A program made the translations under genes and the position numbers. From Henckelia pumila (lineage: Eukaryota; Streptophyta; Magnoliopsida; Lamiales; Gesneriaceae), in assembly GCF_033568475.1 (NCBI RefSeq), contig NC_133121.1, positions 744,001-808,000 on the forward strand: a stretch of DNA of 64,000 nt. Direction: 5' to 3'. The notes below the pieces were generated by a model. It was not told the DNA's origin. It saw only the letters and a program-made list of their open reading frames with translations, and did no database searches. Position 1 is the stretch's first letter. The number at the start of each line of letters is the position of its first letter. Shown piece after piece: positions 6,186 through 64,000 of this stretch.

Positions 6186-6264
6186 GGGCAGATGATGAGC
6201 AATTTATACTGTGGCTGAATAAACCATGTAGCTACATAATTCGAGCTTTTTAAAACTGATGCCC
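6186..6264 (+). ncRNA. Box C/D snoRNA, U36/snR47 class (18S rRNA 2'-O-methylation guide)
   Basis: All parts of a C/D snoRNA are present: terminal stem GGGCA (6186-6190) with TGCCC (6260-6264), C box ATGATGA (6192-6198), D' box CTGA (6215-6218) and D box CTGA (6256-6259). The guide before box D, CGAGCTTTTTAA (6242-6253), is complementary to 12 bases of the universally conserved 18S rRNA segment TTAAAAAGCTCG. By the rule of five bases upstream of box D, the target is the first A of AAAAAGCUCG. That is the site modified under U36 in animals and plants and snR47 in yeast (numbering about A620 in plants and yeast). The second guide before D' has no target I recognise. C' is weak. Confidence 0.82.
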
Positions 6265-8506: not shown

Positions 8507-8958
8507 TTTAAAAAAAATTATAATTTTTTTTCTTTTTAAAAATCAATGAGACAATGAATGCGGAAATGAGGGGAAAAAATTTAAACCAGCGGATCCCGTA
8601 ATACGTTGGCCGTTTGCGCATATAAAAAGAAATAAGAGGAAAACTGAAAGAAAAAGGCAGTTCACAGTTTATTGCCGAATTTATTTAACTAAATAACCTT
8701 TGTTTACCATATTTTGAAATATAACCTTCTGGATATTTTTACTTTATTTTGTTTTTACATTTTTTTTTGTATTTAAAGGTTATAAATCAAAAAATTTGAT
8801 TTAAACAAAGTTATTTTTCAAAGTCTATCGTTTATTCCCATTTCTGTTGTCTCTCGTGTCTCCAAACTCATTTGATTTTATCTAAATTATCCATTGCCAT
8901 CTTTCTTTTTGACCTGAAGAAATTTTTGTCAAAATCTTCGAAATTGACGATTAAAGTT

Positions 8959-11900
8959 ATGGGATTGGGCGATGCGGATCTCCTTGACGATGGCGATGGA
9001 GTTGGCGGAGGAGGAAAGGCGATGGCCATGGCCTTGTCGTGTTCCATTTGCTTAGAGGCGGTCATGGATAACGGCGATAGATCTTGGGCTAAGCTTCAAT
9101 GCGGCCATCAATTTCACCTCGGCGAGTGATTAACATTTCATTTTCTCAATAATTAATCGTGATCTTGCCAATTTTATTTTTGTTCCATTTTCTATTGATT
9201 GGATTTAGTTCGAAGGCTCAATTCACCCGGAATTTTATAGTTTAACGAGTGATTTTTGTGATATAATGTTTTCCCTCAAAGTCTCAGTGCATCTAACTTG
9301 CTTTTAGAATTTGAGGAATTAAGGAAATTTTGGGCGAACGCGAGATTTTTTGAGTGGAGATATAATTGGAAATTCACAGTTAGGATGATCTAACGTAGTT
9401 CCTTGATTGGAAAAGGAAGTTAACTGCAGAATATTTTAATGTAGATGAAAGTTTGAATCTGTTGAAGTAGAGAAATGATAACGGTGAATAATTGACTCCG
9501 TGTGCTGACTGCTGCATTTGAACTCATTGACTGGTGCCTGTTGGATAGAATACTATATAAGCTTATCGATGGATACATTCTTCCAGTCTCTCTTCCTCTG
9601 TGATTGGAAATGTTTATCGTGATGGTTTAACCTAGTCTAAGCTCAACCTGTTCGTGGTTGTAATTATAATTTTATGGAACGTATATACAAATATTGATTG
9701 TTTTGTAGAGCTGTCCTGTTTTATGTTGGGAAATCCCTCTCTTCTTATTGTCGGCTACCTTTTTTGACAGTGACGATCAATCTACATCACCAGTTCTTCA
9801 TTGTCTTGAATTTTTTTAACCATTTTGATTGGTCTTATGGAGCTAATGAAAATCTATTTTACTTAATAGATCTTTTCTGATACAAGGTTCTCAAAATTAT
9901 ATTACCAGCAAGTCACTTTGAATTTGATTTGGTGAGCAACTGCTAAAAATGGCATGGAAGATAAAGCGTTACCATCTGTCGTTAATTTAGTTTTTAAAAT
10001 TAACCTGATGTGTTTGAAATTTGGTTTTCCTGATGTGAAAGAAGTTAGAATGGTCATGAATATTGCATCGGAAGAAAATAATTGTTAAATTTTTTGTTTA
10101 AAGAATAATTCCTGAATGCTTGGGTGTATAAAACGCATCTTCACAAGAAATTTGTAAATTTTCATACAAAAAGAAAATTCTTGAGGTTGATAATTTTAAG
10201 TGTGGAATTTTGCTCATGTTTTTTCTAGATGCATATTTTTTCTCACTATATTGTGGTTATCATGATCTGTACAGATTGCATTGGCTCAGCCTTCAACATT
10301 AAGGGGGCAATGCAATGTCCCAACTGTCGGAAAATTGAGAAAGGACAATGGCTTTTTGCAAATGGCAGTCGTCCGTTGCCTGAATTTAACTTTGATGACT
10401 GGGCTCATGATGAGGATCTCTATGATCTAAGCTACTCTGACATGGTAATTGCATAAACTTAATTTTTAAATTTTTGATGTTTTATTATTGCTGGAACTGG
10501 AAATTGTAGGTGTATAGACCCTTCTGGTTTCCCTATATGTTAGGAGTCCCATCTATGCTCCCAAATTTCTTTGATCTTATTGTAGGCAATTATGAATCAA
10601 GTTGCTTATACTGAATTGTCACTGTCATTTATTGTTTATGCTCCGAGTTTAGGTGAACTCCAATTGTGCATTATATGTTAGATAGATTATGTGGATTTTC
10701 GCATTTCAACCCTCGTAGCTTATGCCTTATTGTATGTATAACCATGCATAAAAGCTAGATAATAATATTTCTATTTAGTTTTTTTAAAAAATTGTGAGTG
10801 ATTTTGCAGTCATTTGGAGTTCACTGGTGTCCATTCGGTGGGTTGACAAGGATCCCTGCTTCTTTTGAGTAAGCTCTATTAACGATTACGAGTGTATATT
10901 AATTAAGTCCTAAGAGTAGTTTGATTAAGTTTCATTTCTACGTTTGAATAGATAACACATCTTTGAACCATTCTCATATTCAAGTCGCTTTTAGATGCCT
11001 ACAGAAAATATATTCTTGTTTCCTTTGTTTACTAGCAGATTGGCACATGATGAGCTTTTTGGTAAAACTAGCTGAACAACTTTGTGGTTTGGAGGAATAG
11101 TATGGCTATACGATTGCTATGAAATGAAGAATGTAGAATGTTTTGTGAGCATACATAAATCTCTACCTCATCCGGCACTCTGGCTTTGTCTATTCTCATT
11201 TTCCCATCAATAATAGGTAATTGATCGGCGAAGCTTATGAGAGAAAGTTATGCTATCGGCTAACAGCTTGCTTTAAATATTCATTAGATTTTTTAGCACA
11301 ATCATCTGAGTAAATTTGCATTCAAACACACCTGAAGGGGCCCAATCAGTTGAAGGTTCTCTAACTTGATAAATCATACCACTGTCTGAGCACGTACATG
11401 ACATGACACATTGAAACTTTGAAATGAAATTATTACATAAAACTTGTTGGTTTTATACGTTCGCGAAGAAAAGCGTATTATTCTTTGGTCAATTTTGTAA
11501 ATCATTGTATGGCAAACCTTGTTTTCATTTCGACACTCTGTATTCCATATTAAAAGTAAAGACTCTTTGTTTTTTTCTTCCAATTGAACGATGCAATTAC
11601 ATCATAAATGTAATGTTTCCTGCATAATATTTTCAGTTTGGATGCTTTACTAATTATTACATACAAAACACATAAACAGTGCATAAACTTACAATTCGTG
11701 AGCCATATATATGGGATTTTATATGAAAGGATTCTGCTATTAGAATCCACTAATTTGGTGTTTAATTTTTCGTGTCTTTCTGTCATACCATCACAGAAAT
11801 ATATTATAAAGATAGCAAATAATTGTCACAGGTGCAATAGGTAAACATATTGAAATCTTTTCAATTGCTAACAAGCCTCAAATTATGAATTCATCACTTA

Positions 11901-14900
11901 ACATGGAAGGAAAGTTGGAATATAAAACATCGAAAAGTAGAAATAACTAATGTTGAAGTTTATACGAGTCAGAGAAGAGAATCATAATATGATCTAGAAA
12001 TTCCTGTCCAACTCCTTTGCTAATGCTTCATTCCACATATAAAACACAGTAATATTAAATCAACGCGGTTAAATGCGTGTAAAATCTAATGATTAATGTT
12101 ATTTATACTGTGATGTATATAATTATTTAGGGTTAATTGTATCAGGCCCTTGTGAAAAGTATGAAAGGCATAATGACCCCTAAAAATTATTAAAAAGTAA
12201 AAGTAACTACTGTTGAATTTTATAGTAGTCAGAAAAAAGAATGGTAATATGATCTAGAATTCCTATCCAACTCATTTGTTAATGCTCCATTCCCCAAATA
12301 AAAAGACACTTAAATTAAATCAACACGGTTAAATGCGTGTAATATCTAAGGAATAATAATATTAATGCTGTAATGTATACAATTATTTAGGACTAATTGC
12401 ACCAAGCTCCCAGTGAGAAGTATAAAAGACATAAAATAAAATCTCCTAAAAAAATAAAAAAGGGAAAATAACTAACGCTGAATTTTATAGGAGTTAGAAA
12501 AGAGAATCATAATCCGATCTATAAATCACTGTCCAACTCATTTTCTAATGCTTCATTCCGCATATAAAAACGCAGTCGTATAAAACCAACACAGTTAAAT
12601 GCGTGTAAAATCTAATGATTAATGTTATTTATACTGTGACGTATACAATTATTTAGGGCTAATTGCACCAAGTTCCCTGTGAAAAGTATAAAAAAGATAA
12701 ATCCCCCTAAAAACATCAAAAAGTAAAAACTGCTAAAATTTTATAGGAGTCGGAGAAGAGAATCACGATATGATTTAGAAATCTACAACCAACTCATTTG
12801 CTGATGCTCCATTCCACGGATAAAAACACACTTGTATTAAATCAACTCGGTTATATGCATGTAAAACCTAATGAAAAATGTTACTTATACTGTGATTATA
12901 CAATTATTTAGGGCTGATTGCATCAGGTCCCCCCCTGTGTAAAGTCGGAAAGACGTAAAACCTCCTAAAAATATTAATAGAGTAATATATCATTCATTTT
13001 AAAAATCAAACACATTTAACCCATTTGTCCAAAACACTCCAGCACATTTACCCCATTTTTTAGTGGTTATATGCCTGATTTTAAAAGAACATGACGTTTA
13101 AATGCAATTGATTTTAAAGAGTTGTTTTTTCGCATTCTCTATTTTTTACAGGGTACTGACGTAATTTGTCCCACATATTTATATGCAGTGAATATGCTCA
13201 ACAAAGCAATTTGTACCAGTATAACTTTAAATCTGTCCTCCCAACAATGCTTTTAGATCTCAAATAGTTACCCACTAAAGGAGGCATTAGTTGGCAACTG
13301 AAAGAAATCTTTTCCAAAATTCAACACAGTGAAACCAAACTAAATTACCCATGAGGATTCTGGAAAACATAAAAACTGAAACTATTGGAGTATCAGATTT
13401 ATGTAGAATTGTAGTTTTATGTGCTGTTAATATGTTTAGGTTTCGTGGACCACTTGTCTGCTTTTTGTAATTATCCTTCTTATTAATATAATGTATTATG
13501 TCTTATGTAAAAAAAATTGGTAGACCAAAACAAAATAGAAAGACATGTTGTGGAAACTAAAAATTTCCAAGTTGCAAAATATAATTTCCAGAGATAAGGA
13601 TAAATGAGATTCAGAGGAGAGTGTTTTGGCATTGGTCGAAGAAAGTCAAAGACATAAGAACAAGCGAATGTATGTGCCGAGAAACATACCATATAGGTGT
13701 GCAGAATGTGTCCTGGGTTTCTGTTCTTATATAACTAAAGTTCAAACCCTTTTTATTTTGTGTGAAAATATACAAATGCAATCTTTTGGGAAACCACTTA
13801 AAGTTGGTATTGTAACGATGTCTGGCTGAGTTATCAGACTTTTGTCCTCCTAAATTTGGAGTTTATTATGCTTAAAATTTTTCTTAGATTGCGCAGTTGA
13901 AAATGGGGATAAAGGAAAATTACAACTACTTGTGAGACGTAATAAGTTTCCACTTCAGGAATAGGTTATGTCCTTGATCCTCGCACTTAATTATGAATTA
14001 GTTGCATGACCTTCACCTTCTATGCAATCTGCTTTTGAGATGACTTAACAGCTTTTTGACAAGTCTTTACTCTTGAATGCTGGCCTTTTGAACTGGGAAA
14101 AGAATTAACAATCAGTAAGAGAAAAGCTCTTCACATGCCCATGTTAAATTTTGTTTTTCCCTTTTGGGGTCTAGGTGTGGCGAACCTCCTGTATATTCAC
14201 ATCCTCATTTAATTCTTTGTCTCTTTTTTTCCTGATTCTAACAATGATGAAACAAAATAGATGCTGTAACTGTTTACTAGCATTTTTTATTTTAGGCTGT
14301 GTGCAAGTAGTACATTTATAGTTGGATACTGGGGGGTCGATGGTATAAATATCTTACCAAAAGAAGATAAGTCGTAGTTCTTGATAAATGCGTTGGTTTA
14401 ACTATAAAGCATGCATGGTGGAAAAGATTTTCAGTCAGCCCTGAAGCCTATTGTTTTTTTTTTTTTTTTGATGGGTCCTGAAGCCTATTGTTGGCTGTCC
14501 ATATAAGTTACGCATGATTTCTATATTTAGTGAAAGTTCTCCCTTTGTTTATCCTTTTGAAAATTTCAAGAGTCAACCTCATTCAAATGGAAAGCAGAAA
14601 GTGGACGCCTCTTCTTGTCAGTCTGCTAAAATTTCATGTGAAGAATAGCGGGCATATTGTGAACGTTAATGAATGATTCAAGAAGAGATACCACTTCGCT
14701 ACTATCCTGAATCTTTTTATTCCCTGGACTTGGGATTAAGCATAGGCACAAATCATGCTTCACTGTTAGAATCAGGACATATTTTTTTCATGGAGCTCTA
14801 GATTACTTGTATGCGGTTAAATTGCTTTTAGCATAGTATGTTTGAAGTATTTCATGTGAAAGCATTCAGCTAATAGTGCTCTGGAATTTTACTTTTTTTT

Positions 14901-32379: not shown

Positions 32380-33936
32380 TCAGAAGTTCAGTCCTCGTTC
32401 AATCATCGCAACTTTTATTCGATCGACGTCCTCGTTACGACCTGCATTTCGATAAATCTTCATCAAGAGTTCAAAATTATTCTCCCCATCTGGCTCCAAC
32501 TCAAACATACGTTTCGCAGCTATCTCTCCTATATTAATGTTGCCATGAACATAACAAGCATAAAGCAATGCACCCCATACAGTTGGCCCAGCCTCGAACA
32601 CCATTTTACTGGTTATAAACTTGTATGCTTCGTCGATCAACCCCGCCTTTCCATAAAGATTCACCATACACCCACAGTGCTCCATACTTGGGCTCAAACG
32701 AACCCCCTCCGTCATCAAAACAAACAACTCTTCCCCATCTTTCACCAATCCCAAATGAGCACAAGCAGATAACAGTGAAACAAATGTGATTGAATCTGGT
32801 GAGGCCTCACCAGATTTCATCATGCGTTTGAAGTACTCAAGAGCTTGGGGATCCTTCGAGTGGGCTGAAATTATTGAGTTCCATGAGACTACATCCCTCT
32901 CAGGCATACACTCGAATAACCATCTTGCTTGGTTTAATTTATCCTGGTTCGAGTAAAAAAGGATCAAAGAGTTACCTACGGATAAATTCCACTCCATCCC
33001 TCTTCGAATAATCCATCCATGTACTTGTGCCCCGATTATGTAGGGAGAAATGCTACTCAAAACAGATGACAAGGTAACAGAGTCAGGTTCACCGCTTCTG
33101 GACACCATCCACCGAAAGATATCACATGCTTCGGTTTCAAGATTGTGCTTGAAGTACCCAATAATCATAGTATTCCAAGAGACCAAGTCCTTATCCTTAA
33201 TTCGATCAAACACGTGCCGGGCCTTGACAATGTCACCACATTTGGCATACATATCAGCAAGAGAATTCAGCACAAACGTGTCATTGCCAAGCCCGATTCT
33301 GATCACATGCCGATGAATCTCTTCACCAACTTGAATCATACCAATTCCTCCACAAGCTTTCAACACCCGCGGAAAAGTGTACTCATCAGGCTCCACGTCC
33401 TCTTCCACCATCTGAAAGTACAATGCCAGCGCATCTTCATAGAAACCCATCTCGACATAGCCAGAAATGAGCGAATTCCACGGAAAAGCCGACGTATTTC
33501 GGTCACTCATGTGATCGAACATTTCGTGTGCTTTTTCCACATACCCATTACTAGCATACAATCGGATAAGCTTTGATGAAATTCCGACATTCTTACTCAA
33601 AAGCTTAAGAGGAATGAGATTATGAACTTTAATACCTAGATCAATAGCTTTCAATTGGGCACAGGTTTCAAGAAGCGACGCATAAATTTGAGGATCCTCG
33701 ATTATAATGCCAGTCTTCACAGAGGCTTCTAGTTTTTCGATGACAGTTTCCAGGGCCTGGATTTTGGAACGGGGCGTGATATTTTGGTGGATTAAGAGTG
33801 GGGTTGGCGCTGATTTTGGGAAATGGAGTTTTGGTTTAGGATTTTGGTAGATTTGAATTTGCTTATGCTGTTTCTTCTTTCTTGCGCTGCATGAGAAGCT
33901 TGGGCATGAAAATGGCAGCTGCAAGCAAAGCTTCAT
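32380..33936 (-). CDS. OTP70: Pentatricopeptide repeat protein, OTP70 orthologue (plastid)
   Basis: Intronless, 518 residues from the ATG at 33934-33936. The frame is open a further 20 codons upstream but has no ATG there and is closed by a stop at 34000-34002, so this ATG is the only good start. The PPR motifs are of the PLS type: NSLISGYVEMGFYEDALALYF, EPDEYTFPRVLKACGGIG, NSLADMYAKCGDIVKARHVF, WNTMIIGYFKHN, NSIISAH, PDSITFVSLLSACAHLG, VWGALLYACYVHGNI, ending in an E-type tail without DYW. The order and wording match Arabidopsis At4g25270 (OTP70; about 527 residues), reported to be needed for plastid rpoC1 splicing. The N-terminus (MKLCLQLPFSCPSFSCSARK) is Ser/Cys/basic-rich, as in plastid transit peptides. 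No defects seen. Confidence 0.92.
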   Translation of the reverse strand: MKLCLQLPFSCPSFSCSARKKKQHKQIQIYQNPKPKLHFPKSAPTPLLIHQNITPRSKIQALETVIEKLEASVKTGIIIEDPQIYASLLETCAQLKAIDLGIKVHNLIPLKLLSKNVGISSKLIRLYASNGYVEKAHEMFDHMSDRNTSAFPWNSLISGYVEMGFYEDALALYFQMVEEDVEPDEYTFPRVLKACGGIGMIQVGEEIHRHVIRIGLGNDTFVLNSLADMYAKCGDIVKARHVFDRIKDKDLVSWNTMIIGYFKHNLETEACDIFRWMVSRSGEPDSVTLSSVLSSISPYIIGAQVHGWIIRRGMEWNLSVGNSLILFYSNQDKLNQARWLFECMPERDVVSWNSIISAHSKDPQALEYFKRMMKSGEASPDSITFVSLLSACAHLGLVKDGEELFVLMTEGVRLSPSMEHCGCMVNLYGKAGLIDEAYKFITSKMVFEAGPTVWGALLYACYVHGNINIGEIAAKRMFELEPDGENNFELLMKIYRNAGRNEDVDRIKVAMIERGLNF

Positions 33937-34003
33937 ACTTTGCTGCTGTACTTGAGCAACAGGCAACAAACGTAGGCTCCTGAATTGTCCTCGCAAAATT
34001 CAT

Positions 34004-35395
34004 GTCAAGTCTCTGTTAACAAACATGCAAAGCCTGGAAGAGCTTCTCAATTTGTCGAAGAAGATAAGCCACTTTTGGTGGGCTGTGATTTGGGCCAATT
34101 TAAGGCATTTGATCGGCCCAAATCATAATTTCTGAATTGCTGAAGATAAGCTAAATTTGGGCTCTGACTTCGCCCAATTTATGTTATTTTGTTCGGCCCA
34201 GACCACATCTCTGCTATGCTGAAGCAAAGCCAATTTTGTTCTGTGATTCAGCCCAACTTAGAATGTTTTGTTCGGCCCGGCCTAAAAATTCTGCTGTGCT
34301 GAAGATAAGCCAATTTTGGGCTGTGACATTTAAAGTATCTTGTTCGGGGCAGCCCACAACCCAAATCAGCTCGGTCCAGGCCATAATTTTCGCCATGCCT
34401 ATTTTAGGATCCATTTGGCCCAATTTGAGGTTTTGCTCAGAGCCAGCCCACAGTTTCCGCTATCCGGACGACGAGCCGATTTTGGTCTGTGATTTGGCCC
34501 AATTTAAGGTATTTTGTTCGGGCCCGGCCGATCATTTCTGGGATCCCAAAGAAAAGCGAATTTTGGGTTATGGACAAATCAGGATATTTTGTTCGGGCCA
34601 GCCCAAACTGCTACGCTTAAGACAAACAAATTTAGGCTCTGATTTGGCTCAATTCGAGGTCTTTTGTTCAGGGCCAACCCAAAGTTTCTGCTGTCCGGAA
34701 GATAAGCTAATTTTGGTCTATGATTTTGGCCCAATTAAAGGTACTTCGTTCGAGACCTGCCCTCAATATCTGATATCCCGAAGAGCCATAAGGCTGTGAT
34801 TTGCCTCAATTTATGTATTTTGTTCGGCCCAGACCACAAGAAACTTGGCCCAACTTAGAATATTTTGTTCGGGCCAACCCATACTTTTGTCATATGCTGA
34901 AGACAAGCTGAATTTGGGCTCTCTTTGGCCCAACCTGAGGTATTTTTCTCAGAGCAAGCCCAAAAATTCTTCTATCCCAAAGATGAGCCGATTTTGTTTT
35001 GTAATTTTGGCCCAATTTAAGGTATTTTGTTCGGGGCCGACCGATAATTTCTGATATCCCGAATATAAGCTAATTTTGGGCTGTGATTTGGCCCAACTTA
35101 AGATATTTTGTTCGGTCCACATACCATAAATTCTGAAGACAAGCCAATTTGGGCTCCAAAAGGCCTAACTTCAGCATACAGAAATTCCCGGACTTACCCT
35201 ATATTGGGCCAAACCACAACCCAAAATTGGCTTATCATCAGCGTAACAGAAATTTTAGGCTGGCTCGAATAAAGTACCTTCAATTGGGTCATATCACAAC
35301 CCAAATTTAGCTTATGTTCAGTATATAACAGAAATTGTTGGCTGGCCCCAATAAAATTACATTAAATTGGGTCAATATCACAGCCCAAAATTAGC

Positions 35396-35396
<1 letters not shown>
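34004..35396. repeat. ~78-bp degenerate minisatellite rich in GGCCCA, with an inverted end
   Basis: From about 34050 to 35150 a unit of the type GAAGATAAGCCAATTTTGGG / CTGTGATTTGGCCCAATTTA / AGGTATTTTGTTCGGGCCAG recurs about 14 times. Spacing between successive GTTCGG words is mostly 73-82 bp. From about 35165 to 35396 (and again at 35610-35640) the unit appears in inverted orientation (CCCAAAATTGGCTTAT, GGGTCATATCACA). The array starts within 50 bp of the OTP70 frame and so fills its promoter region. GGCCCA/TGGGCC words are repeated throughout. Confidence 0.85.
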
Positions 35397-35426
<30 letters not shown>

Positions 35427-36210: not shown

Positions 36211-39200
36211 TCAGCCGAATTTGAAGCCGCCTGTAGGAATATTTGGCTGATTATCGCCAAAGTTGAAACCTTGATGATTTCCATCTACATTATTAACAAG
36301 ATTTTGATCGTCTTCTTCTTCAGCCCAGTACTTCTCCAAAATTTTCACTGCCTTTTCATATATTTCCGTGTTGTCATGGCTCTGAAGATTTTCTATTTTG
36401 TCTAGCCCTTCACAATCATCAATCATTTGTGCATATATATTGATTCCATCATTCAAACCATTTTCTTTATCTGTCTCACCTACCTTCAAAATGTTTTCAA
36501 GGCCCTCCAGGCACACGGTGATGATCCTTGGGTCCGGACATATTAAGAGATCGCACAGTGGCTTGATGCAACCTTGGCTCGCCAAGAATCTGCAACAGTA
36601 GTATCATGTCAGAATCCATTTTGCTCAAACATGTTTACATGGTATGATTATAACTTCATGGTATGCAAGCCAAATCCTAAGAATTCTAGAAACGATAACT
36701 TGGAGAAAAGGAAAGGTATCAAGAGGGGGAGAAGATAAATTAGGCGGGGATAGAAGGTGAAGGAAATTCGTTCTTTGTTTTTACTAGCTTGCACTAGGGG
36801 CAAGGAGCGCGAGTGCATTCGTCTTGTAAAATATCCTTCAAGGATGAGATATTTCTCAGATTATAGTCCTATTCAATCAATCTATTTTCCTTTTCTATTA
36901 GTGAAAATTTGCAGAATTAATGGTGTTAGGAGATCTAGATCCTAACAGGGCCATACACAAACCTGATTGGTAGAAAATAAATATCGATAAAAATGTTCAA
37001 GAAGTTGTTGGTGACTACAGAATTCAAACAGTATCAGACCTGATTGGATTTGATATCAAGAACAAATTGCGTCTACCAGATCTTTGTGAACTTTTTTTTT
37101 AAAAAAAATCTGGTAACTATCATTTCCGTTTTCTCAAAACATTGAAGAAATGATGATTGAAATTTTATTCAACTTCCTCTTGAATTGAATTATAGAGTTA
37201 CAATTAGTTTTTGTACTACTGATATCACATAGAGTTGAGAGGAAATCACCACAATACCTAATCTGCTCATAAGATCCACCAGAGGTGGCATTTGATATTG
37301 CCCATGCAGCCTCTTTCTTAATTTCAAACTCTGCATGTTGGAGAAGTTGCACCAAGGGAAGAAGGATATTAGCCTCAATGACAGCCTGTTACAAAGAAAT
37401 TCAACAAAATAATGAAAGAAATGCTCCCAAACAAACACACCAAAAGTATCTCCACACAACTTATAGTTCACAGGAAGAAAGACACCACTGACATCATCTT
37501 CTACTACCTTTTTCTATGAACTGACATTTGCTGACTCATTCAGCTTACTTGTCCCATCTTAACAAAAAAAATGATCAGCCATCACTTCAAACTAGCAAGC
37601 TACTGGCTAAGCTTGTAACCTTTTGGATGATGTGAAACTGAGGCCTTCAAAATTTTTTAACTGAATGCAGAATGATAATCTATTACAACGATACTCACCT
37701 AAGCTACCAATCTGACTGCAGCTATTATGATGCTAGCCTTGAATGGCAAATGAAGATCCTAAATGGGTCAATACAGAGTATAGATCTCCAGTGATAAGGC
37801 AAATAAAAAACAGCATTAAAAAATGTGACCTAGGAGTCGATCGCGTGTGTGTTACAAATTCACAAAGTTCACCCAAACCAAAAATCTCAGGCAGCTTAAC
37901 TTTCATATTCTTTTTCGGAAGAGGGCTATGAAAAATGGATGGATTTATTGAAAGAAAATCCCGTTCAAGACAGAGGCTTTAACAGAAAAATTTTCAAAAG
38001 CAAAAAGGCTTCTTAAAACAGACATTTATCTCACATATATCTAAAGCGTCCGACAAGCGTCCACTTTTCTACTCTGAACTATTAAGGTAGTCATAAAAAC
38101 TTGAAACCCAGTCTTCCAATTACTTTCTTGCATCTGATTTAGATACCTTTCCTTTATGGAGATTGATAATTTTACCTAGGCTTGCCATTACATTCAGTGT
38201 CATAGAGCATCTTATTCTAATCAAAACTTCTGCTCACGTGTACACTTGAAAAATATATGCATTAGTTTCCCTGTATCTTCTAGTTTACAATATAATTTAT
38301 CCAACATTCAGCATATCAGCCACATTTAGGATAAAACTTCCAACACTTGCTCCATATAACATGGCAGCAAGACTAACACAAGTCTTGTAGACATTCCATC
38401 TAACCTTAAAAAGAGTAAGTCAACCACGGAAACTCTACGAAATAAAAATAAATGGAAAAGAAAAGAAAGAAAACAGAAATGAAGATAGAAGGATAAATGC
38501 GAGCTAATAGTGACCATCCATTTTATGTTTATTTGATCAAACTAGTGGTGAACAATTCACTTTAAGTATTCAGCAATATATGATTACACCAAAACAAGAA
38601 AGAGAAAACTTAGTCTACCTGTATTTGAGCTTTATTTCCAGCAGTGATATTGGAAATTGTCCAGCAAGCTTCCTTTTTAATGCTTTTCTTGTGATTTTGT
38701 GTGAGAAGTTGGTAGAGAATCGGGAGAACTTGGTTTTCAATTACAAACTGTAGCAATAAACAAAAAACAATGTGAAGTGATAAAAAAGAACAAAATGGTG
38801 ATGACAAGATGTTTTTATGCTCTATCAGCCACAACTGATTCCCAGAATTTATCTCAATCGGGTGTTCCCGCGTGTGTAGTGTGTACGCTTCTGTGCATGT
38901 GTTTTTGTCCTGTTACTACTTCCAGACTTTATCCTCGTCACATAAAAGAGTAAAGAAATAACAATGCATAATCAGATTCCGGATATGGACATTGCACATA
39001 TATAACATTTAGCCCTCAAACAAACCACATCGAGTTGAATTTTCAGATGGATGAAATTATCAAATTTTTCACATTTTTTCAATATCAATCCCTTTGGAGG
39101 GAAACACTAACAAGAAAAGGACAAGTCAATTAAAACCAATAAACATACAACTGTGCCATGGGAATCTCGAAGAAAAACTATTTATCATATGAGAAATTCA

Positions 39201-43154: not shown

Positions 43155-50552
<7,398 letters not shown>

Positions 50553-52255: not shown

Positions 52256-52937
52256 TGTAACGCCCCAGATTCGAAGACTATCCCCACTATATCAAGATGG
52301 ATATTTTTCAGCGTGATTATGTCCTCACTCACACGCATCTTGAAAAAATTTCTAGGTGATCACTCATCCTCAAATTGCCTCAAGTCAAGCATGTTTATCT
52401 TTGGAGTTCTTATGTGATGAATTCCCGAAAAGAAAAATGCAATTTTTTTATATGAGTAGTACATATCAAATCTTTTGTACCTCTCGTTTCGATGTGAATC
52501 TGTTCATTCATGTCACCCGTCACTTATGCTTTGGTGGATTTTCCATCTTTCAGGTATTAACCACACATATTGCGGACCATGTACCGCTCTAAAACATTTG
52601 GCTTTGGGTGACACATGTCCATCAACTTCCACTTGGTTCGTCCCCGAACCACGCCGTACTAGAAGAGACCAAGCTCTGATACCCACCGAAACTTTCCAGG
52701 GGGTCACACATCCTAGAATTGCCCTTTGGAGTTCTTATGTGATGAGCTTCCAAAAAAAAACATCTTCTTGATATGAGTAATACATATCAAATCTTTTGTA
52801 CCTCTCATTCCGATGTGAGATCGGTTCATTCATGCAAGCCATCGCCCATTCATTGGTGGCATTTTCATATTTCATGTATTAAACACCCATATTGCAGACC
52901 ATGTATCGCCTTAAGACATTTGGCTTTGGGTGACACA
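52256..52937 (-). mobile_element. Fossil TRIM-like LTR element, broken
   Basis: One LTR-like copy runs 52256-52615 (TGTAACGCCCC ... GGGTGACACA, TG..CA ends). A second, partial copy lies at about 52690-52937 and shares the words ATATCAAATCTTTTGTACC and ACATTTGGCTTTGGGTGACA. Between them, next to the partial copy, is GCTCTGATACC (52673-52683), the reverse of the plant primer-binding site for initiator tRNA-Met, so the element points to the minus strand. No gag or pol remains. Clear differences between the copies point to a fairly old insertion. Confidence 0.65.
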
Positions 52938-53850
52938 ATCAAACTTTTAAAACTTAATGTACCAGAACTCAAAAAATTAGATAAATTAGTAAACCAACAA
53001 ATTATTTGCTCTTGTATGTACGTGTGCATGTATAATTAAATTCAATGTTTTTCATTTAAAACACGATAATTTTTGGAAAATATTAGAGGTACAACAAATA
53101 TTGTGTACAACGATATTTACAAATAATATCGTCAGATTTTGCTATTTTATCGCGAGATTTTATATTTAATGTATCGTGAGATTTTGATAAATTAAATTCT
53201 TGTATTGAATTTTTTGTTGTTGTAAGTTTTGGTGTACAAATTTCGTTGTACATGTATCATCACTCTAATTTTTTTCCCTCAAATTGTGTCAACCATTAAT
53301 ATTCAGGATTAATAGTCGACGATTGATTTCTACATGTTTCACCAAATATACCTGTAGAAATTACTATATTTGAAACTATTATTCAATATTAGGTAGCGAC
53401 CTAAATTTTTACATGTTATATATGTCATATTTTATAAATGAAAATTAATTAAATTTCAAATAACCTTTGGGTTTTTGAAAAATAAATAACCTTTAGATTT
53501 CTAAAAGGTTAATAAATTTAGGTTTTTGAAAGGTCAATAATGCTTGAGTTTCTGAAAGGTTAATAACCTTTCTGAAAGGTCAAATAACATTTGATATGTT
53601 GAAAGGACACTGACCCTTGGCATACTGAAGGGTCATTTTCCTATAAACACTTGACCTCGTTTCAAAATTTACAACTTTGGAAAACCAATTTTCACTCTAT
53701 CTCTCTTCTCTCGGTTTCTGTCTGAGCTATTTCTTTCCAAGTCATGATAAAGTTCAGGTAATGTTCAGTTCGCCTGTATCGTACTTTGTGCTAATTTGTT
53801 GCAGGTATCATCGTTATATCCTGAAAAACTATCGTCTACAGTAAACCTCA
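52938..53850. other. AT-rich spacer before the protease-derived array
   Basis: 53460-53625 is a degenerate short tandem repeat built on GAAAGGT(T/C)AATAACCTTT-like words of about 30-35 bp. It is followed by a TATA-like TATAAAC (53643) and a CT-rich stretch (53695-53730), which looks like a remnant promoter/5' leader just ahead of the first array unit. No open frame. Confidence 0.4.
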
Positions 53851-53860
53851 AAACACCATA

Positions 53861-54852
53861 GGAGGAGACGAAAATGTTTTAGGGAAACTGTAATTTATTA
53901 CAGGCCTCGGTTTGGTTTCGACTTCTTTATCTTTACAAGATTTATTATTCTATTGTATATTGTAATTGTAATACAGTCTCTTCCACATTCAAGTATTATT
54001 ATACTCCCTTCTAATTCCCCCAACAAGAAATCTATTGGTGTGCGTGCATTTGTTAGTGCAGTAAAATCTGTCGAAATGTATTGCAGATTTTTTAATGTCC
54101 CAATCAATGGTCTATACCCCTTCTGTTTCGACGTCATGGATGTATATAGTAACTGTATTAGGCTCCTCCGCTCATTGATGGTGCCGATTTTTACAAATAA
54201 GATGTTATCTGTGACTACGGAGCTTTTATGTAAGACGTTATGTGGTATATAAAGACACATGGATTAAAAATGTCCACCATATGCACCGATCCCCTTAAAC
54301 GCAATCTAATTACATTTTTTTATGAAATGTAAGACGTTATTGTATTATTTGAAAACATAAAATGGAATTTTTATCATTTATATTTGTATTTATTTTTTGT
54401 TTTTTTAATGAGAAATATATCATATCAACTTGAGTAAGACCATGAAATCAACCAAAGTGATCCAATAATTGAGTTCCGACAATCCAGTAATCGGCAAAAA
54501 TGATTTCATATAAACCTTTTCTTGATCTTAAAATGATAAAATCGGTTGTTCTCTTGTTGCGACACTGATATTCAACAATAACATATTGTATTTTGAAATT
54601 TATATCGTTTTAGGGCTTCTACGATGTGCCAACCGATAATGAGATCAACGAATAAAGACTCTCATCGATATCATTATCTGCCAATTGTGGGACTAGTAAA
54701 AAAAAAGTGTAATGCGTGATTTCTTTATAGTGAAAAAATATGAAGGAGATGACTTTGGTTTTGAAGGCTTTGTGTCATTTGTCAAAGTCGTTTCAGTTCT
54801 CCAACCTATTTGTTGATGAGTTTTGGGCTACAATGAACTTCGAAACACCGTA
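53861..54852 (+). pseudogene. Array unit 1 (long): C1A protease-like pseudogene
   Basis: First unit of the array. An open stretch at 53953-54252 carries the Cys-box region as GVRAFVSAVKSVEMYC, with Arg where the catalytic Cys should be. The His box reads YHYLPIVGL near 54661-54690. Contains the middle segment with a GT-AG intron-like part. Most diverged of the long units, as expected at an array edge. Confidence 0.6.
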
Positions 54853-55862
54853 GGAGGAGACGAAAATATTTTAAGAAAACTGTAATTTATTACATGCCTC
54901 AGTTTGGTTTCAAATTCTTTATCTTTACATGATTTACTATTGTATTGTATATTTTAATTGTAATACATGTCCTACCACATTCAAGTATTATTATACTACC
55001 TCCTAATTCCCCCAACAAGAAATCTGTTGTTGTGTGTACATTTTTTAGTGCAGTGTCATCCGTCAAAATTCATTGCAGATTTTTAAATGTCCCAATCAAT
55101 GGTCTATACCCCTTCTGTTTTGACGTCATGGATGTATATGATAACTTGAATTCGGCTTCTCCGCTCATTGATGGTGCCGATTTTTGTAAATTATGTTATC
55201 CGTTACTACAGAGCTTTTATGGAAGAAATTATGTGGTTACTGTGGTATATGAAAACACATAGATTAAAACAAATCTACCATATGCACCGATCCCCTTGAA
55301 CGTAATCTAATTGCGTTTTTAGATGAGAGGGTAAGTCGTTATTGTCTTATTTGTAAACATATAGTTGAATTTTGATAATTTATATTTGTCTTACTTTTTA
55401 AAAAAAAATAGGAAATATATCATGTCAACTTGAGTAAGACCATAAAATCAACGAGGTGATCCAATATTTGAGTTTCGAAAATCCAGTAATCGCAAATAAT
55501 TTCATATCAACATGTTTTTTTTTATCTTAAAACGATAAACTCGATTGTTCTCTTGTTGTAACGCTAATATTCAACAATAACATATCGTCTTTCGAAATTT
55601 AATATTGTTTTAGAGCTTTTACGATAGATCAATCGATAATAAGATCAACGATATAAACAGAGACACTCATGTATACCATGATGTGCTAATTGTAGGACTA
55701 GTTAATTTTTTTTTTAAAAAAAGGTGTAATTTGTGATTTCTTTATAGTGCAAAATAATGAATAGGAAGACTTTGATTTTGAAGGTTTTGTGGCAATGTCG
55801 TTTCAGTTACCCAACTTATTTGTTGATGAGTTTTGGGGTCCAGTGAACCTCGAAACACTGTA
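54853..55862 (+). pseudogene. Array unit 2 (long): C1A protease-like pseudogene
   Basis: Open stretch 54945-55262 has VVVCTFFSAVSSVKIHC (Cys kept, usual Trp absent) followed by YPFCFDVMDVYDNL and SFYGRNYVV. His/Asn box strongly decayed. Long form. Confidence 0.6.
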
Positions 55863-57082
55863 GGAGGAGACGAAAATATTTTAAGGAAACTGTAATTTAT
55901 TACAGGCCTCAATTTTGTTTCAAATTCTTTATCTTTTACTATTGTATATTGCAATTGTAATACAGGTTCTTTCATATTCAAGTATTATTATACTCCCTCA
56001 TAATTCCCCCAACAAAATTTGTGTGTGTGCATTTGTTAATGCAGTGTCATCCGTTGAAATGCATTGCAGATTTTTTAATATCCCAATCAATGTTATATAT
56101 CCCTTCTATTTTGACGTCATGGATGTATATGATAACTTGTATTCGGCTTCTCCGCTCATTGATGGCGCCAGTTTTTACAAAGCATGTTATCTGTGACTAC
56201 AGAGCTTTTATGGAAGACATTATGTGATATATGACACATGAATTAAAAAAAGTTCACCATATGCACCGATCCACTTAAGCGCAATCTAATTGCATTTTTA
56301 GATGAGATGGTAAGCCGTTATTGCCTTATATATAAACATATATTTGAATTTTGATAATTTACATTTGTCTTTATATTTTTTTAAATAAATAGGAATGATA
56401 TTATATCAACTTGGGTAAGACAATGAAATCAACGAGGTGATCCAGTATTTGCGTTCCGAAAATCTAGTAATCGGCAATTAATTTCATATCAACCTTTTTT
56501 TTATCATAAAATGATAAACTCGATTGTTCTTTTTTTGGGACGTTAATATTCAACAATAACATATTGTCTTTTGAAATTTATATTGTTTAAGAACTTTTAC
56601 GATGGACCAACCGATAATGAGATCAACGATATAAACAGAGACGCTCCTGGATACCATTATCTGCTAATTGGGGGACTATTCAAAACATTAAAAAAAGGTG
56701 TAATGCGCGATTTCTTTATAGTGCAAAATAGTGAATATGAGGACTTTGGTTTTGAAGGTTTTGTGTAAATGTCGTTTCAAAAAAGTTCACCATACGCACC
56801 GATCCCCATGAACGCAATCTAATTGTATTTTTAGATGAGAGAGTAAGCGATGAACCAACCGATAATGAGATCAAAGATATAAACAGAGACGCTCATGAAA
56901 ACCATTATGTGCTAATTATGGGACTAGTAAAAATAAAAAAAGAGGTGTAATGTGCGATTTCTTTATAGTGCAAAATAGTGAATATGAGGACTTTGTTTTG
57001 AAGGTTTTTTGGCAATGTCGTTTCAGGTTCCCAAACCTATTTGTTGATAAGTTTTGGGGCTTGTGAACTTCGAATCACCGTA
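55863..57082 (+). pseudogene. Array unit 3 (long plus partial repeat): best-kept His/Asn box
   Basis: Cys box VCAFVNAVSSVEMHC in 55915-56196. The frame 56571-56768 reads FYDGPTDNEINDINRDAPG, YHYLLIGGL, then RDFFIVQNSEYEDFGFEGFV. This aligns by eye with the C1A pattern (G)HAVLIVGYG ... YWIVQNSWGEDWGEEGF: catalytic His and Asn are recognisable, the Trp after NS is not. From 56780 the last third is repeated in short-monomer style, making the unit 1220 bp. This is where the array switches from all-long to alternating. Confidence 0.65.
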
Positions 57083-58071
57083 GGAGGAGACGAAAATATT
57101 TTAATAAAACTGTAATTTATTATAGGCCTTATTTTGGTTTCAAACTCTTTATCTTTACAGTTATACTATTTTATTGTGTATTGCAATTATAATACATATC
57201 CTTCCACGTTCAATTAATATTGTACTTCCTCCTAATTCCCCAAATAAAAAATTTATTGGTGTGTGCATTTGTTAGTGCAGTGTCATCCGTCGATATGCAT
57301 TGAATATTTTTTAATGTCCCAATCAATGGTCTATACCCCTTTTTTTTTCGACGTCATGGATGTATATGATAACTTGTATTCGGCTCCTTCGCTCATTGAT
57401 GGTGCCAATTTTTACAAAGGATGTTATCTGAGATTATTGAGCTTTTATGGAAGACGTTATGTGGTATATGAAAACACAGGGATTAAAAAAAGTCCACCAT
57501 ATGCACCAATCTCCTTGAACGCAATCTAATTGCGTTTTTAGATGAGAGGGTAAGCCGTTATTGTCTTATTTGTAAACATATAGTTTAATTTTGATAATTT
57601 ACATTTGTATTTTAAAAAAAAAAATAGGAAATATATTATATCAACTTGGGTAAGACAATGAAATCAACGAGATGATCCAGTATTTGTGTTCTGAAAATCT
57701 AGTAATCGGTAAATAATTTAAAATCATCCTTTTTTTATTATAAAACGATAAACTCGATTGTTCTTTTGTTGGGACATTAATATTCAACAATAACATATTG
57801 TATTTTAAAATTTATATTGTTTGAAAACTTTTACGATGGACTAACCGATAATGAGATCAACGATATAAACAGAGACGCTCCTGGATACCATTATGTGCTA
57901 ATTGGGGGACTATTCAAAACATAAAAAAAGAGGTGTAATGCGCGATTTCTTTATAGTGCTAAATAGTGAATATGAGAACTTTGGTTTTGAAGGTTTTGTG
58001 GAAATGTCGTTTCAATTCTCCAACCTATTTGTTGATGATTTTTGGGATCCACTAAACCTCGAAACACCGTA
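57083..58071 (+). pseudogene. Array unit 4 (long), first L of the L/S series
   Basis: Open stretch 57263-57529 carries FDVMDVYDNLYSAPSLIDG, FYKGCYLRLLSFYGRRYVV and ENTGIKKSPPYAPISLNAI. The PPYAPIPLNAI part corresponds to the region after the YPY motif in plant C1A proteases. The Cys box is read in another frame. Confidence 0.6.
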
Positions 58072-58777
58072 GGAGGAGACGAAAATGTTGTAAGAAAATT
58101 GTAATTTATTAAAGGCGTCAATTTGGTTTCGAATTCTTTATCTTGACTGTTTTTACTATTGTATTATATATTGCAATTGTAAAATAGACCCTTACACATT
58201 AAAGTATTATTATACTTCGTCCTTATTCTCCCAACAAGAAATCTATTGGTGCATGTGCATTTGTTAGTGCAGTGTCATTCGTCGAAATGCATTGTAAATT
58301 TTTTAATGTCTCAATCAATGGTCTATACTCCTATGTTTCGACGTCATTTATTTATATGATAACTTGTATTCCGCTCCTCTGCTCATTGATGGTGTCGATT
58401 TTTATAAAGGATTTTATATGTGACTACAGAGCTTTTATGGAAGACGTTGTATATAGAAACACATGGATTAAAAAAAGTCCAACATACGCACCAATCCCCT
58501 TGAATGCAGTCTAATTACATTTTTAGATGAGAGAGTATGCGATGAACCAACCGATAATGAAATCAACGATATAAACAGAGACGCTCATGGAGACCATTAT
58601 GTGCTAATTGTGGGACTAGTCAAAATAAAAAAAAGAGGTGTAATGTGCGATTTATTTATAGTGTAAAATAGTGAATATGAGGACTTTGTTTTGAAGGTTT
58701 TTTTGGCAATGTTATTTCAGGTTCCCCAACCTATTTGTTGATGATTTTTGGGGTCTTGTAAACTTCAAATCACCGTA
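58072..58777 (+). pseudogene. Array unit 5 (short)
   Basis: Short monomer lacking the ~285-bp middle segment: AGATGAGAGAGTATGCGATG joins straight to the CCAACCGATAATGA segment near 58540. Frame 58272-58514 holds FVEMHCKFFNVSINGLY and NTWIKKSPTYAPIPLNAV. Confidence 0.6.
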
Positions 58778-59770
58778 AGAGGAGACGAAAATATTTTAAG
58801 ATAACTGTAATTTATTACAGGCCTCATTTTGGTTTTAAATTCTTTTTCTTTACAATTTTACAATTTTATTGTATATAGCAATTATAATACATGTCCTTCC
58901 ACATTCAAGTAATATTGTACTTACTCCTGATTCTCCCAACAAGAAATTTATTGGTGTGTGTGCATTTATTAGTGCAGTGACATCCGTCGAAATGCATTGC
59001 AGATTTTTTAATGTCCTAATCAATGGTCTATACCCGTTTTCTTTCGACGTCATGGATGTATATGATAACTTATATTCGGCTCCTCCGCTCATTGATGGTT
59101 CCGATTTTTACAAAGGATGTTATCTGTGATTATTGAGCTTTTATGGAAAATGTTATGTGGTATATGGAAACGCATTGATTAAAAAAAGTCCACCATATGC
59201 ACCGATCTCCTTGAACGCAATCTAATTGTGTTTTTAGATGATATGGTAAGCCGTTATTGTCATATTTGTAAACATATAGTTGAATTTTGATAATTTACAT
59301 TTGTATTTTATTTTTAAAAAAAATATAAAATATATTATATCAACTTGGGTAAGACAATGAAGTCAACGAGGTGATTCAGTATTTGCGTTTCGAAAATCTA
59401 GTAATCGAAAATAATTTTATATCAACCTTTTTTTTATCATAAAATGATAAACTCGATTGTTCTTTTGTTGGGACGTTAATATTCAATAATAACATATTGT
59501 CTTTTGAAATTTATATTGTTTGAGATCTTTTATGATGGACCAACCGATAATTAGATCAACGATATAAACAGAGACGCTCATGGATACCATTATGTGCTAA
59601 TTGGGGGATTAGTCAAAACATAAAAAAAAAAGTGTAATGCGCGATTTATTTATAGTGCAAAATAGTGAATATGAGGACTTTGTTTTTGAAAGTTTTGTGG
59701 AAATGTTGTTTCAATTCCCCAACATATTTGTTGATGATTTTTGGGGTCCACTAAACCTCGAAACTCCGTA
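58778..59770 (+). pseudogene. Array unit 6 (long)
   Basis: Frame 58869-59129 holds the Cys box as GVCAFISAVTSVEMHCRFF and YPFSFDVMDVYDNLYSAPP. Contains the middle segment and the His/Asn box region (GYHYVLIGGL near 59582-59611). Confidence 0.6.
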
Positions 59771-60473
59771 GGAAGAGACGAAAATATTGTAAAGAAATTG
59801 TAATTTATTAAAGGCTTCAGTTTGGTTTTGAATTTTTTATTTTTACTGTTTTTACTATTGTATTGTATATTGCAATTGTAATACAGACCCTTACATATTC
59901 AAATATTATTATTCTCCGTCCTTATTCCCCCAACAAAAAATCTATTGGTGCATGTGCAATTGTTAGTGCAGTGTCATTCGTCGAAATGCATTGTAGATTT
60001 TTTAATTGTCCCAATCAATGATCTATACTCCTATGTTTCGACGTCATGTATGTATATGATAACTTGTATTCCGCTTCTTCGCTCATTGATGTTGCCGATT
60101 TTATAAAGAATGTTATATGTGACTACAGAGCTTTTATGGAAGACGTTGTATATAGAAACACATGGATTAAAAAAGTCAACCATTCGCACCGATCCCCTTG
60201 AACGCAGTCTAATTGCCTTTTTAGATGAGAGAGTATGCGTTGAACCAACCTATAATGAGACCAACGATATAAACAGAGACGCTCATTGAGAGCATTATGT
60301 GCTAATTGTGAGACTAGTCAAAATAAAAAAAGAGGTGTAATGTGCGATTTTTTTATAGTGCAAAATAGTGAATAGGAGGACTTTGTTTTGAAGGTTTTTT
60401 GGCAATGTCATTTCAGGTTCCCCAACCTATTTGTTGATGAGTTTTGGGGTCTTGTGAACTTCGAATCACCGCA
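59771..60473 (+). pseudogene. Array unit 7 (short)
   Basis: Short monomer; anchor word has one change (GGAAGAGACG). No open stretch above 60 codons, but the DNA follows the S consensus throughout, including the missing middle segment near 60235. Confidence 0.6.
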
Positions 60474-61462
60474 GGAGGAGACGAAAATATTTTAAGAAAA
60501 CTGTAATTTATTACAGGCCTCAGTTTTGTTTCAAATTCTTTATCTTTACAGTTTTATTATTTTATTGTATATTGCAATTGTAATACATGTCCTTCCACAT
60601 TCAAGTAATATTGTACTTCCTCCTAATTCCCCCAACAAGAAATTTATTGGTGTGTGTGCATTTGTTAGTGCATTGTCATCCGTCGAAATACATTGCAGAT
60701 TTTTTAATGTCCCAATCAATGGTCTATACCCATTTCTCTTTCGACGTCATGGATGTATATGATAACTTGTATTCGGCTACTCCGCTCATTGATGGTGTTG
60801 ATTTTTACAAATGATGTTATCTATAATTATTGAGCTTTTATGGAAGAAGTTATGTGATATATGGAAACACATGGACTAAAAAGAGTCACCATATGCACCG
60901 ATCTCCTTGAACGCAATCTAATTGCGTTTTTAGATGAGAGATCAAGCCGTTATTGTCTTATTTGTAAACATATAGTTGAATTTTGATAATTTACATTTGT
61001 ATTTTTTTTAAAAAAAATAGAAAATATATTATATTAACTTGGGTAAGACAATGAAATCAACAAGTTGATCCAGTATTTGCGTTTCTAAAATCTAGTAATC
61101 GGCAAATAATTTCATATCAACATTTTTTAATCATAAAACGATAAGCTCGATTGTTTTTTTTGGGACGTTAATATTCAACAATAACATATTGTCTTTTAAA
61201 ATTTATATTAATTGAGAACTTTTATGATGGACAAACCGATCATGAGATCAATGATATAAACAGAGACGCTCATGGATACAATTATGTGCTAATTGAAGGA
61301 CTACTCAAAACATAAAAAAAAAAAAAAGAAGAGGTGTAATGCGCGATTTCTTTATAGTGAATCTGAGGACTTTGGTTTTGAAGGTTTTGTGAAAATGTCG
61401 TTTCAATTCCCCAACCTATTTGTTGATGATTTTTGGGGTCCACTAAACCTCGAAACACCGTA
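60474..61462 (+). pseudogene. Array unit 8 (long)
   Basis: Frame 60526-60762 contains KKFIGVCAFVSALSSVEIHC, a well-kept Cys box without the Trp. Long form with intron-like GT-AG middle part. Confidence 0.6.
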
Positions 61463-62174
61463 GGAGGTAACGAAAATGTTGTAAGGAAATTGTAATTTAT
61501 GAAAGGCGTCAGTTTGGTTTCGAATTTTTTATTTTTACTATTTTTACTATTATATTGTATATTGCAATTGTAATACAGGCTCTTATATATTCAAGTATTA
61601 TTATACTCCGTCCTTATTCCCCCAACAAGAAATCTATTGGTGCATGTGCATTTGTTAGTGCAGTGTCATTCGTCGAAATGCATTGTAAATTTTTTAATAT
61701 CCCAATCAATGGTCTATACCCCTATGTTTCGACGTCATGTATGTATATGATAAATATGATAACTTGTATTCCGCTCCCCCGCTCATTGATGGTGCCGATT
61801 TTTATAAAGGATGTTATATGTGACTACGGAGCTTTTATGGAAGACGTTGTATATAGAAACACATGGATTAAAAAAAGTTCACCATACACATTGATCTCCT
61901 TGAACGCAGTCTAATTGCATTTTTAGATGAGAGAGTAAGCGATGAACCAACCGTTAATGATATCAACGATATAAACAGAGACGCTCATGGAGACCATTAT
62001 GTGCTAATTGTGGGACTAGTCAAAATAAAAAAAATATGTAATGTGCGATTTCTTTATAGTGAAAAATAGCAAATAAGAGGACTTTGTTTTGAAGGTTTTT
62101 TGGCAATGTTGTTTCAGGTTCCCCAACCTATTTTTTGATGAGCTTTGGGGTCTTGTGAACTTCGAATCACCGTA
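61463..62174 (+). pseudogene. Array unit 9 (short)
   Basis: Frame 61555-61914 (119 codons, the longest in the array) has KKSIGACAFVSAVSFVEMHC, then CDYGAFMEDVVYRNTWIKKS. A 9-base local duplication (ATGATAA) extends it slightly. Short form. Confidence 0.6.
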
Positions 62175-63167
62175 AGAGGAGATGAAAATATTTTAAGAAA
62201 ACTGTAATTTATTACAGGCCTCAGTTTGGTTTCAAATTTTTTATCTTTACAGTTTTACTATTTTATTGTATATTGCAATTGTAATACATGTCCTTCCACA
62301 TTCAATTAATATTGTACTTCCTCCTAGTTCCCCAAACAAGAAATTTATTTGTGTCTGTGCATTTGTTAGTGCAGTGTCATCCGTCGATATGCATTGAAGA
62401 TTTTTTAATGTCCCAATCAATGGTCTATACCCCCTTTTCTTTTCACGTCATAGATGTATATGATAACTTGTACTCGGCTTCTCCGCTCATTGATGGTGCC
62501 GATTTTTACAAATGATGTTATCTGTGATTATTGAGCTTTTATGGAAGACGTTATGTGGTATATGGAAACACATGGATTAAAAAAAGTCCACCATATGCAC
62601 CGATCTCCTTGACGCAATCTAATTGCGTTTTTAGATGAGAGAGTAAGCCGTTATTGTCTTATTTGTAAACATATAGTTGAATTTTGATAATTTACATTTG
62701 TATTTTTTTCAAAACAAAATAGGAAATATATTATATCAACTTGTGTAAGACAATGAAATCAACGAGGTGATCCCGTATTTGTGTTCCGAAAATCTAGTAA
62801 TCGTCAAATAATTTCATATCAACCTTTTTTTTATCATAAAACGATAAACTCAATTGTTCTTTTGTTGGAACGTTAATATTCAACAATAACATATTGTCTT
62901 TTGAAATTTATACTGTTTGAGAACTTTTACGATGGACCAACCGATAATGAGATCAACGATATAAACAGAGATGCTTCTGGATACCATTATGTGCTAATTG
63001 GGGGACTATTCAAAACATAAAAAAAGAGTTGTAATGCGCTATTTCTTTATAGTGCAAAATAGTGAATATGAGTACTTTGGTTTTGAAGGTTTTGTGAAAA
63101 TGTCGTTTCAATTCCCCAACCTATTTGTTTATGATTTTTGGGGTCCACTAAACCTCGAAACACCGTA
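62175..63167 (+). pseudogene. Array unit 10 (long)
   Basis: Frame 62288-62515 covers the Cys-box zone in a neighbouring frame (FDVMDVYDNL-type words are displaced). Long form; His/Asn region near 62970-63060. Confidence 0.55.
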
Positions 63168-63854
63168 GGAGGAGACGAAAATGTTGTAAGGAAATTGTAA
63201 TTTATGAAAAGCATCAGTTTGGTTTTGAATTTTTTATTTTTAATGTTTTTACTATTGTATTGTATATTTCAATTGTAAAAAATGGCCTTACATATTCAAG
63301 TATTATTATACTCCGTCCTTATTCCCCCAACAAAAAATCTATTGGTGCATGTGCATTTGTTAGTGCCATTCGTCGAAATGCATTGTAAATTTTTTAATGT
63401 CCCAATCAATGGTCTATACCTCTATGTTTCGACGTCATGTATGTATATGATAACTTGTATTCCGCTCCCCCGCTCATTTATGGTGCCGATTTTATATGTG
63501 ACTACGGAGCTTTTATGGAAGACGTTATATATAGAAACACATGGATTAAAAAAAGTTCACCATACGCACCGTTCCCCTTGAACGCAGTCTACTTGCATTT
63601 TTAGATGAGAGAGAGTAAACAATAAACCAATCGATAATGAGATCAACGATATAAACAGAGACGCTCATGGAGACCATTATGTGCTAATCGTGGGACTAGT
63701 CAAAATAAAAAAGAGGTGTAATGTGCGATTTTTTTATAGTGAAAAATAGTGAATAGGAGGATTTTGTTTTGAAGGTTTTTTGGCAATATCGTTTCAGGTT
63801 CCCAAACCTATTTTTTGATGAGTGTTGGGGTCTTGTGAACTTCGAATCACCGTA
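63168..63854 (+). pseudogene. Array unit 11 (short)
   Basis: Frame 63282-63581 shows FVEMHCKFFNVPINGLYLY. Shortest unit (687 bp), with small extra deletions at about 63365 and 63495. S-type diagnostic words throughout. Confidence 0.6.
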
Positions 63855-64000
63855 GGAGGAGACGAAAATATTTTAAGAAAACTGTAATTTATTACAGGCC
63901 TCAATTTGGTTTCAAATTCTTTATCTTTATAGTTTTACTATTTTATTGTATATTATAATTGTAATACATGTCCTTCCACATTCAATTAATATTGTACTTC
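63855..64000 (+). pseudogene. Array unit 12 (long type), cut by the window end
   Basis: Begins after the L-type lead-in TTGTGAACTTCGAATCACC, so a long monomer is predicted beyond the window. This shows the L/S series goes on. Confidence 0.55.

Follow-up and report, generated by a model that had tools for sequence, protein, structure and literature searches.

A tandem array of alternating long (L) and short (S) units occupies the right end of the window, by which we mean the whole 64,000-nucleotide stretch of DNA analysed here, and each unit can be read as containing scraps that resemble a papain-like (C1A) cysteine protease. This raises the question of whether a protease gene has here been turned into a higher-order satellite of the centromeric type, as the first-pass annotation of this DNA had proposed, or whether the array has a more local origin. 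Our answer is that the locus is likely a fossil array of tandem pseudogenes, organised in dimers and derived from the 3′ end of a C1A gene.

Extent of the array and order of its units

Comparison of the region with itself by self-BLAST, together with cutting at a conserved anchor, reveals a tandem array that begins at approximately 53,839 and runs off the window at 64,000; it comprises 11 complete units in direct orientation and the first 150 bp of a twelfth. The units all lie on the plus strand and follow each other head to tail: no minus-strand match was found inside the array by self-BLAST up to an E-value of 1e-10, and many of the unit-versus-unit E-values equal 0, a similarity far beyond chance. 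The array was not called by Tandem Repeats Finder, which covers periods up to 500 bp.

The left edge of the array lies at about 53836–53841. The first two units are L-like: U1 (53857–54848, 992 bp), which is the most divergent unit and has lost the cysteine codon of its Cys box, and U2 (54849–55858, 1010 bp). They are followed by U3 (55859–57078, 1220 bp), a fusion that is L up to 56,775 and continues as an S 3′ part from 56,776, with the junction falling at a short A run. Beyond U3, the L units U4 (57079–58067, 989 bp), U6 (58774–59766, 993 bp), U8 (60470–61458, 989 bp) and U10 (62171–63163, 993 bp) alternate with the S units U5 (58068–58773, 706 bp), U7 (59767–60469, 703 bp), U9 (61459–62170, 712 bp) and U11 (63164–63850, 687 bp), until the window end cuts U12 after its first 150 bp (63851–64000). 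Of the structure claimed in the first-pass annotation, the strict L/S alternation from 57.1 kb holds throughout U4–U11 (L 989–993 bp; S 687–712 bp) and the dimer of about 1.69 kb agrees with the four that were measured (1,678–1,701 bp; counted from 56776, these are 1692, 1701, 1699 and 1678 bp long), while the twelve tandem monomers are indeed tandem but amount to 11 complete units plus one partial unit, with U3 being a fusion.

The S unit corresponds to L minus approximately 280 bp, a segment in which two intron-like stretches flank a small exon-like piece; an alignment criterion that also takes in a few scattered columns places the difference at 288 columns. Since U3 is an L unit fused to an S tail, a first L-S pair was probably once present at this position and was then damaged. 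The L-S dimers are multi-monomer units repeated as a block, which is the form taken by higher-order repeat satellites.

Genes are found to the left of the array. Pfam was run on 10 open reading frames and six matched: the matches are to a rubber elongation factor in two pieces (2564–4136), a partial RING domain under its cut-off (8800–9126), a PPR protein (32383–33996, minus strand), an Arm-repeat end (36214–36603, minus strand), presumably of an importin alpha, and an FSH1 serine hydrolase (49701–50549). The last of these is the nearest Pfam-recognised gene, with about 3.3 kb between its frame and the array start; three snoRNAs lie at 5390–6265. Judged by these genes, the DNA probably comes from a plant. 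Neither further unit copies nor the missing 5′ part of a protease could be clearly seen in 1–53,838: the array gave short DNA matches only to this interval (best 47 bp, E 7e-6), which among the matches listed fall for the most part within one intron-like, A/T-rich portion of the unit, and protein searches of the same interval reached at best E 3.9 with a unit reading and E 0.026 with C1A proteins. No living parent gene was seen within the window. A search of viral contigs with one exact 20-base pattern gave no match.

Divergence among the units and the satellite question

The complete units share 83.1–93.3% pairwise identity. The L units U4–U10 are 91.0–93.2% identical among themselves and L units compared with S units 83.7–85.8%, while U1 shares 83.1–85.1% identity with all other units and U2 83.5–87.9% with the later ones. 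The four dimers gave identities of 91.3–92.7% over six comparisons: from left to right, neighbouring dimers are 91.3, 92.1 and 92.7% identical, and non-neighbours 91.8, 92.1 and 92.5%. Near-identical copies, or neighbours more alike than other pairs, would be a sign of homogenisation, and neither was found in these six comparisons of four dimers. The four S units group together with a support of 1.000 for the whole alignment, 0.998 for the 5′ part and 0.766 for the 3′ part; together with the dimer identities, this is what a single amplification of the block and subsequent decay would produce. As a rough estimate using substitution rates for plants, the dimers may be a few million years old.

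A competing explanation is that the window holds the diverged edge of a true higher-order satellite, whether centromeric or subtelomeric, with homogenised copies following beyond 64,000. The dimeric higher-order structure and the fact that the array runs off the window are consistent with this, as is the position of the most divergent unit, U1, at the edge. The slight rightward rise in the identity of neighbouring dimers would also fit; however, this rise is small and non-neighbouring dimers are just as close, genes are present in the same 64 kb and 1–53,838 holds no clear further copy, and we regard this explanation as unlikely. The same evidence bears on the likening to centromeric satellites made in the first-pass annotation, which it does not support: the dimers share 91.3–92.7% identity with neighbours no closer than non-neighbours, in a window that contains genes. 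Nothing seen points to a working centromere. Satellite status is only partly supported, in that the higher-order form is present but the dimers are not near-identical and genes lie nearby. That a genuine higher-order satellite of dimeric type arose from the end of a dead protease gene, and continues and expands beyond the window, appears distinctly improbable; if it were true, each stage on the way from gene fragment to satellite would still be visible at a single locus, in order from the edge unit U1 over the diverged monomers U2 and U3 and the deletion-born S to the block-amplified L-S dimers. The best reading is rather that the array is gene-derived and of dimeric order, local as far as visible, old and not homogenised.

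Resemblance of the units to C1A proteases

Judged from the sequence, the ancestry of the units is likely a papain-like C1A cysteine protease. In a comparison by hhalign of the unit readings with papain and 52 prokaryotic C1A proteins, a single collinear alignment was obtained that spans the Cys box through the Asn box and has the catalytic Cys, His and Asn residues in register. The score of 24.8 exceeds the best of 21.6 from 200 column shuffles, with a probability of only 9.8% and with frames that were picked by the analyst with papain in mind. An earlier choice of frame had scored 23.4 with a probability of 6.8%, where the best of 100 column shuffles reached 21.9; it was revised for the central part of the long exon once U1 showed a more continuous frame there, and both versions beat their shuffles.

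A scan for the C1A Asn signature, which we take to be the PROSITE pattern, is free of frame choice, though the box had been inspected beforehand. In U3 and U10 the signature is matched at 11 of 13 positions, in Asn-box coding remnants at 56712–56771 (directly preceded, without a change of frame, by a His-like box) and 63043–63102 respectively, both on the plus strand, and in U4 it is matched at 10 of 13 (at 57947); no other position in the six frames of the window reaches 10. A match of 9 of 13 occurs at six window positions, five of them in the array, with none outside the array reaching 10; in 30 mononucleotide shuffles of the left 53.8 kb, 19 positions reached 9 and none reached 10. A His box of 6/8 in the same frame beside the Asn box was not found even in the units (best 5/8).

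Profile searches gave a fainter picture. The 10 native open reading frames of the array, taken from both strands, had no Pfam match to Peptidase_C1 (best chance match Osmo_MPGsynth, E 0.08), five array pieces matched no Pfam family and three readings with the first frame choices had no C1 match, their best chance match being that of a composite to Clr5 (E 0.023). Single-unit readings likewise gave no match to Pfam C1. Composite His/Asn pieces matched PF00112 alone in two of three queries (E 0.031 and 0.039), spanning profile positions 164–204 and 167–203, and the full composite matched it in one of five queries (E 0.1), beside an unrelated family at 0.12. The best of these matches, from a composite His/Asn piece, reached 14.8 bits (E 0.031) compared to the curated cut-off of 20.7 bits for PF00112, and given that unrelated families reach E 0.023 and 0.08 on other readings, an E-value near 0.03 is not strong alone. 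NCBIfam returned no match for two queries, and the PDB sequence searches returned no C1A chain and one irrelevant chain each. A profile HMM built from papain and 52 of 55 prokaryotic relatives (three were dropped, being too short before the first stop) was also tried as a test of ancestry and set aside as too distant to help: of 13 unit readings, only that of U9 scored higher (6.7 bits) than the best shuffle (6.4 bits), out of 2600 shuffles of which 1735 were given a score.

Chance resemblance to a protease, or descent from another gene family, would be in keeping with the low hhalign probability, with the lack of any profile match at a curated threshold and with the unrelated families that appear at similar E-values on other readings. 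Against this stand the boxes, which follow each other in the expected order and in register, separated by intron-like sequence, the hhalign score, which none of the 200 column shuffles equalled, and the Asn signature, which within the window reaches at least 10/13 in three units only; taken together, these make such an origin very unlikely. Recognition of the C1A family is best graded as probable, being supported by box order, register and the Asn signature but faint and below the Pfam cut-off, and the profile searches came close to returning no C1A match at all, with native frames and single-unit readings giving none and composites sub-cut-off matches only. The order of all three boxes that had been claimed for every monomer applies to the L units, but the four S units are without the middle segment and U1 has lost its catalytic Cys codon. 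Compared with papain-like C1A proteases (PF00112), the units have their Cys, His and Asn boxes in the same order and register, whereas two Trp residues, one following the Cys and one following Asn-Ser, are replaced.

Coding decay, proposed history and known systems

The longest stop-to-stop frame in the array measures 147 codons. No complete unit reads through its own blocks without a stop or frameshift, and owing to these stops and frameshifts no open reading frame capable of encoding an enzyme is present; intron-like stretches are nevertheless kept between the coding-like blocks of the units. Differences at codon positions 1/2/3 amount to 0.094/0.062/0.090 among the L units (n = 4; 0.077 outside the coding blocks) and to 0.083/0.067/0.062 among the S units (n = 4; 0.092 outside), with no third-codon-position excess within either group. 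In the deeper comparisons, the values are 0.147/0.123/0.138 for L versus S (rest 0.186) and 0.173/0.113/0.162 for U1 versus the other units (0.182 outside the coding blocks). The two introns alone differ by 0.137 and 0.115 over all units, which is no more than the coding blocks. The combination of intron-like segments, stops and frameshifts and no third-position excess indicates that the amplified gene end was probably already dead, with decay following. These are the features of a tandem pseudogene array, with a gene-like, intron-bearing and disabled unit apparently free of coding constraint, although in the deeper comparisons its coding blocks vary somewhat less than the remainder. As a separate observation, second codon positions vary least in most comparisons and coding blocks vary less than the rest in the deeper ones, and pure drift does not predict these lower differences.

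Length differences set U1 apart from the later units. In the long exon, U1 differs by 2 nt from U2–U10 (U11 is without that stretch), near the end of the last exon it differs by 7 nt from U2–U11 and in the small exon by 1 nt from the six later L-type units (U2, U3, U4, U6, U8 and U10). Across the 2-nt site U1 keeps one frame, save for in-frame stops, of which one falls exactly at this site, and a 1-nt loss of its own upstream. Frame-changing length differences from U1 are common to the later units, and the simplest reading of this comparison within the array, also as to which state is the older, is that U2–U11 probably go back to a single copy that was already broken.

The history that we propose for the pseudogene array would begin with an intron-containing 3′ end fragment of a divergent papain-like (C1A) gene being duplicated head to tail, with the later copies probably descending from one already broken copy. 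One copy would then have lost approximately 280 bp (intron, small exon, intron) to become S, and an adjacent L-S pair would have been amplified as a block to give at least five L-S pairs, the first of which was damaged by the U3 fusion. The engine of this amplification was most likely unequal crossing-over or replication slippage between repeats, and the array would have decayed afterwards. It appears to have no present coding role, and probably no present function.

Searches of the open-licence literature gave no title on a C1A-derived satellite among the matches listed, no occurrence of the protease phrase among those listed for papain-like proteases with tandem duplication, pseudogene or satellite, a sole match for gene-derived satellites, on U2 snRNA-targeting retrotransposons, and no match for a tandemly repeated pseudogene as satellite. 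The closest precedent seen is Stellate/Su(Ste) of Drosophila melanogaster (review PMC7874207), where a protein-coding gene with an intron has been amplified in tandem and mutations and deletions are present in the Su(Ste) copies, as they are in the copies here. The same review describes expression and piRNA control, and a high-copy Stellate allele with 150–400 copies, far more than the approximately 12 decayed copies of our array. A transcribed non-coding array yielding small RNAs against living protease relatives in the manner of Su(Ste) would find its support in the gene-like tandem repeats and this precedent, the window itself offering nothing for it, but with no inverted repeat arm inside the array (self-BLAST, E 1e-10) and with AT-chX piRNAs, 76% similar to vasa, insufficient for repression according to PMC7874207, it is extremely unlikely. 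Higher-order units are described in a review of satellites (PMC5615363) as arising by simultaneous amplification and homogenisation of adjacent monomers: adjacent monomers were apparently amplified jointly both in primate alpha satellite and here, but our dimers show amplification with little homogenisation.

As a pseudogene array, the locus would represent a readable history from a dead gene fragment to a tandem array of alternating units. Such a path is among the routes by which satellites are thought to begin, and the finding would weigh more if the dimer proved abundant elsewhere in the genome. Primate alpha satellite arrays are very large and near-identical, compared to four measured dimers of 91.3–92.7% identity near genes in our case. 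Plant tandem pseudogene clusters consist of local decayed gene copies, present as whole genes with spacers: local decayed tandem copies are common to both, whereas the array described here is built from partial-gene units in regular L-S dimers.

snoRNA matches

Matches to three snoRNAs (snoU19, snoR138 and SNORD36) were obtained on the + strand at 5390-6265, with two of the three barely exceeding their cut-off.

Repeats distant from the protease array

Besides the protease array (the tandem, probably C1A-derived pseudogene units), we observed a further tandem repeat at 11933-12922, which comprises 3.8 copies with a period of 266 bp and 79% matches. Adjoining the PPR gene, a PPR protein frame on the minus strand, lies a degenerate repeat family of ~80 bp (34060-35400): its copies include both orientations, and one frame continues for 214 codons without a stop.

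Repeats close to the protease array

A short way upstream of the array, a ~215 bp direct repeat is present in two copies of 82% identity (52399-52937), and a short minisatellite-like run with periods of 20-51 (53458-53592) lies shortly before the left edge of the array.
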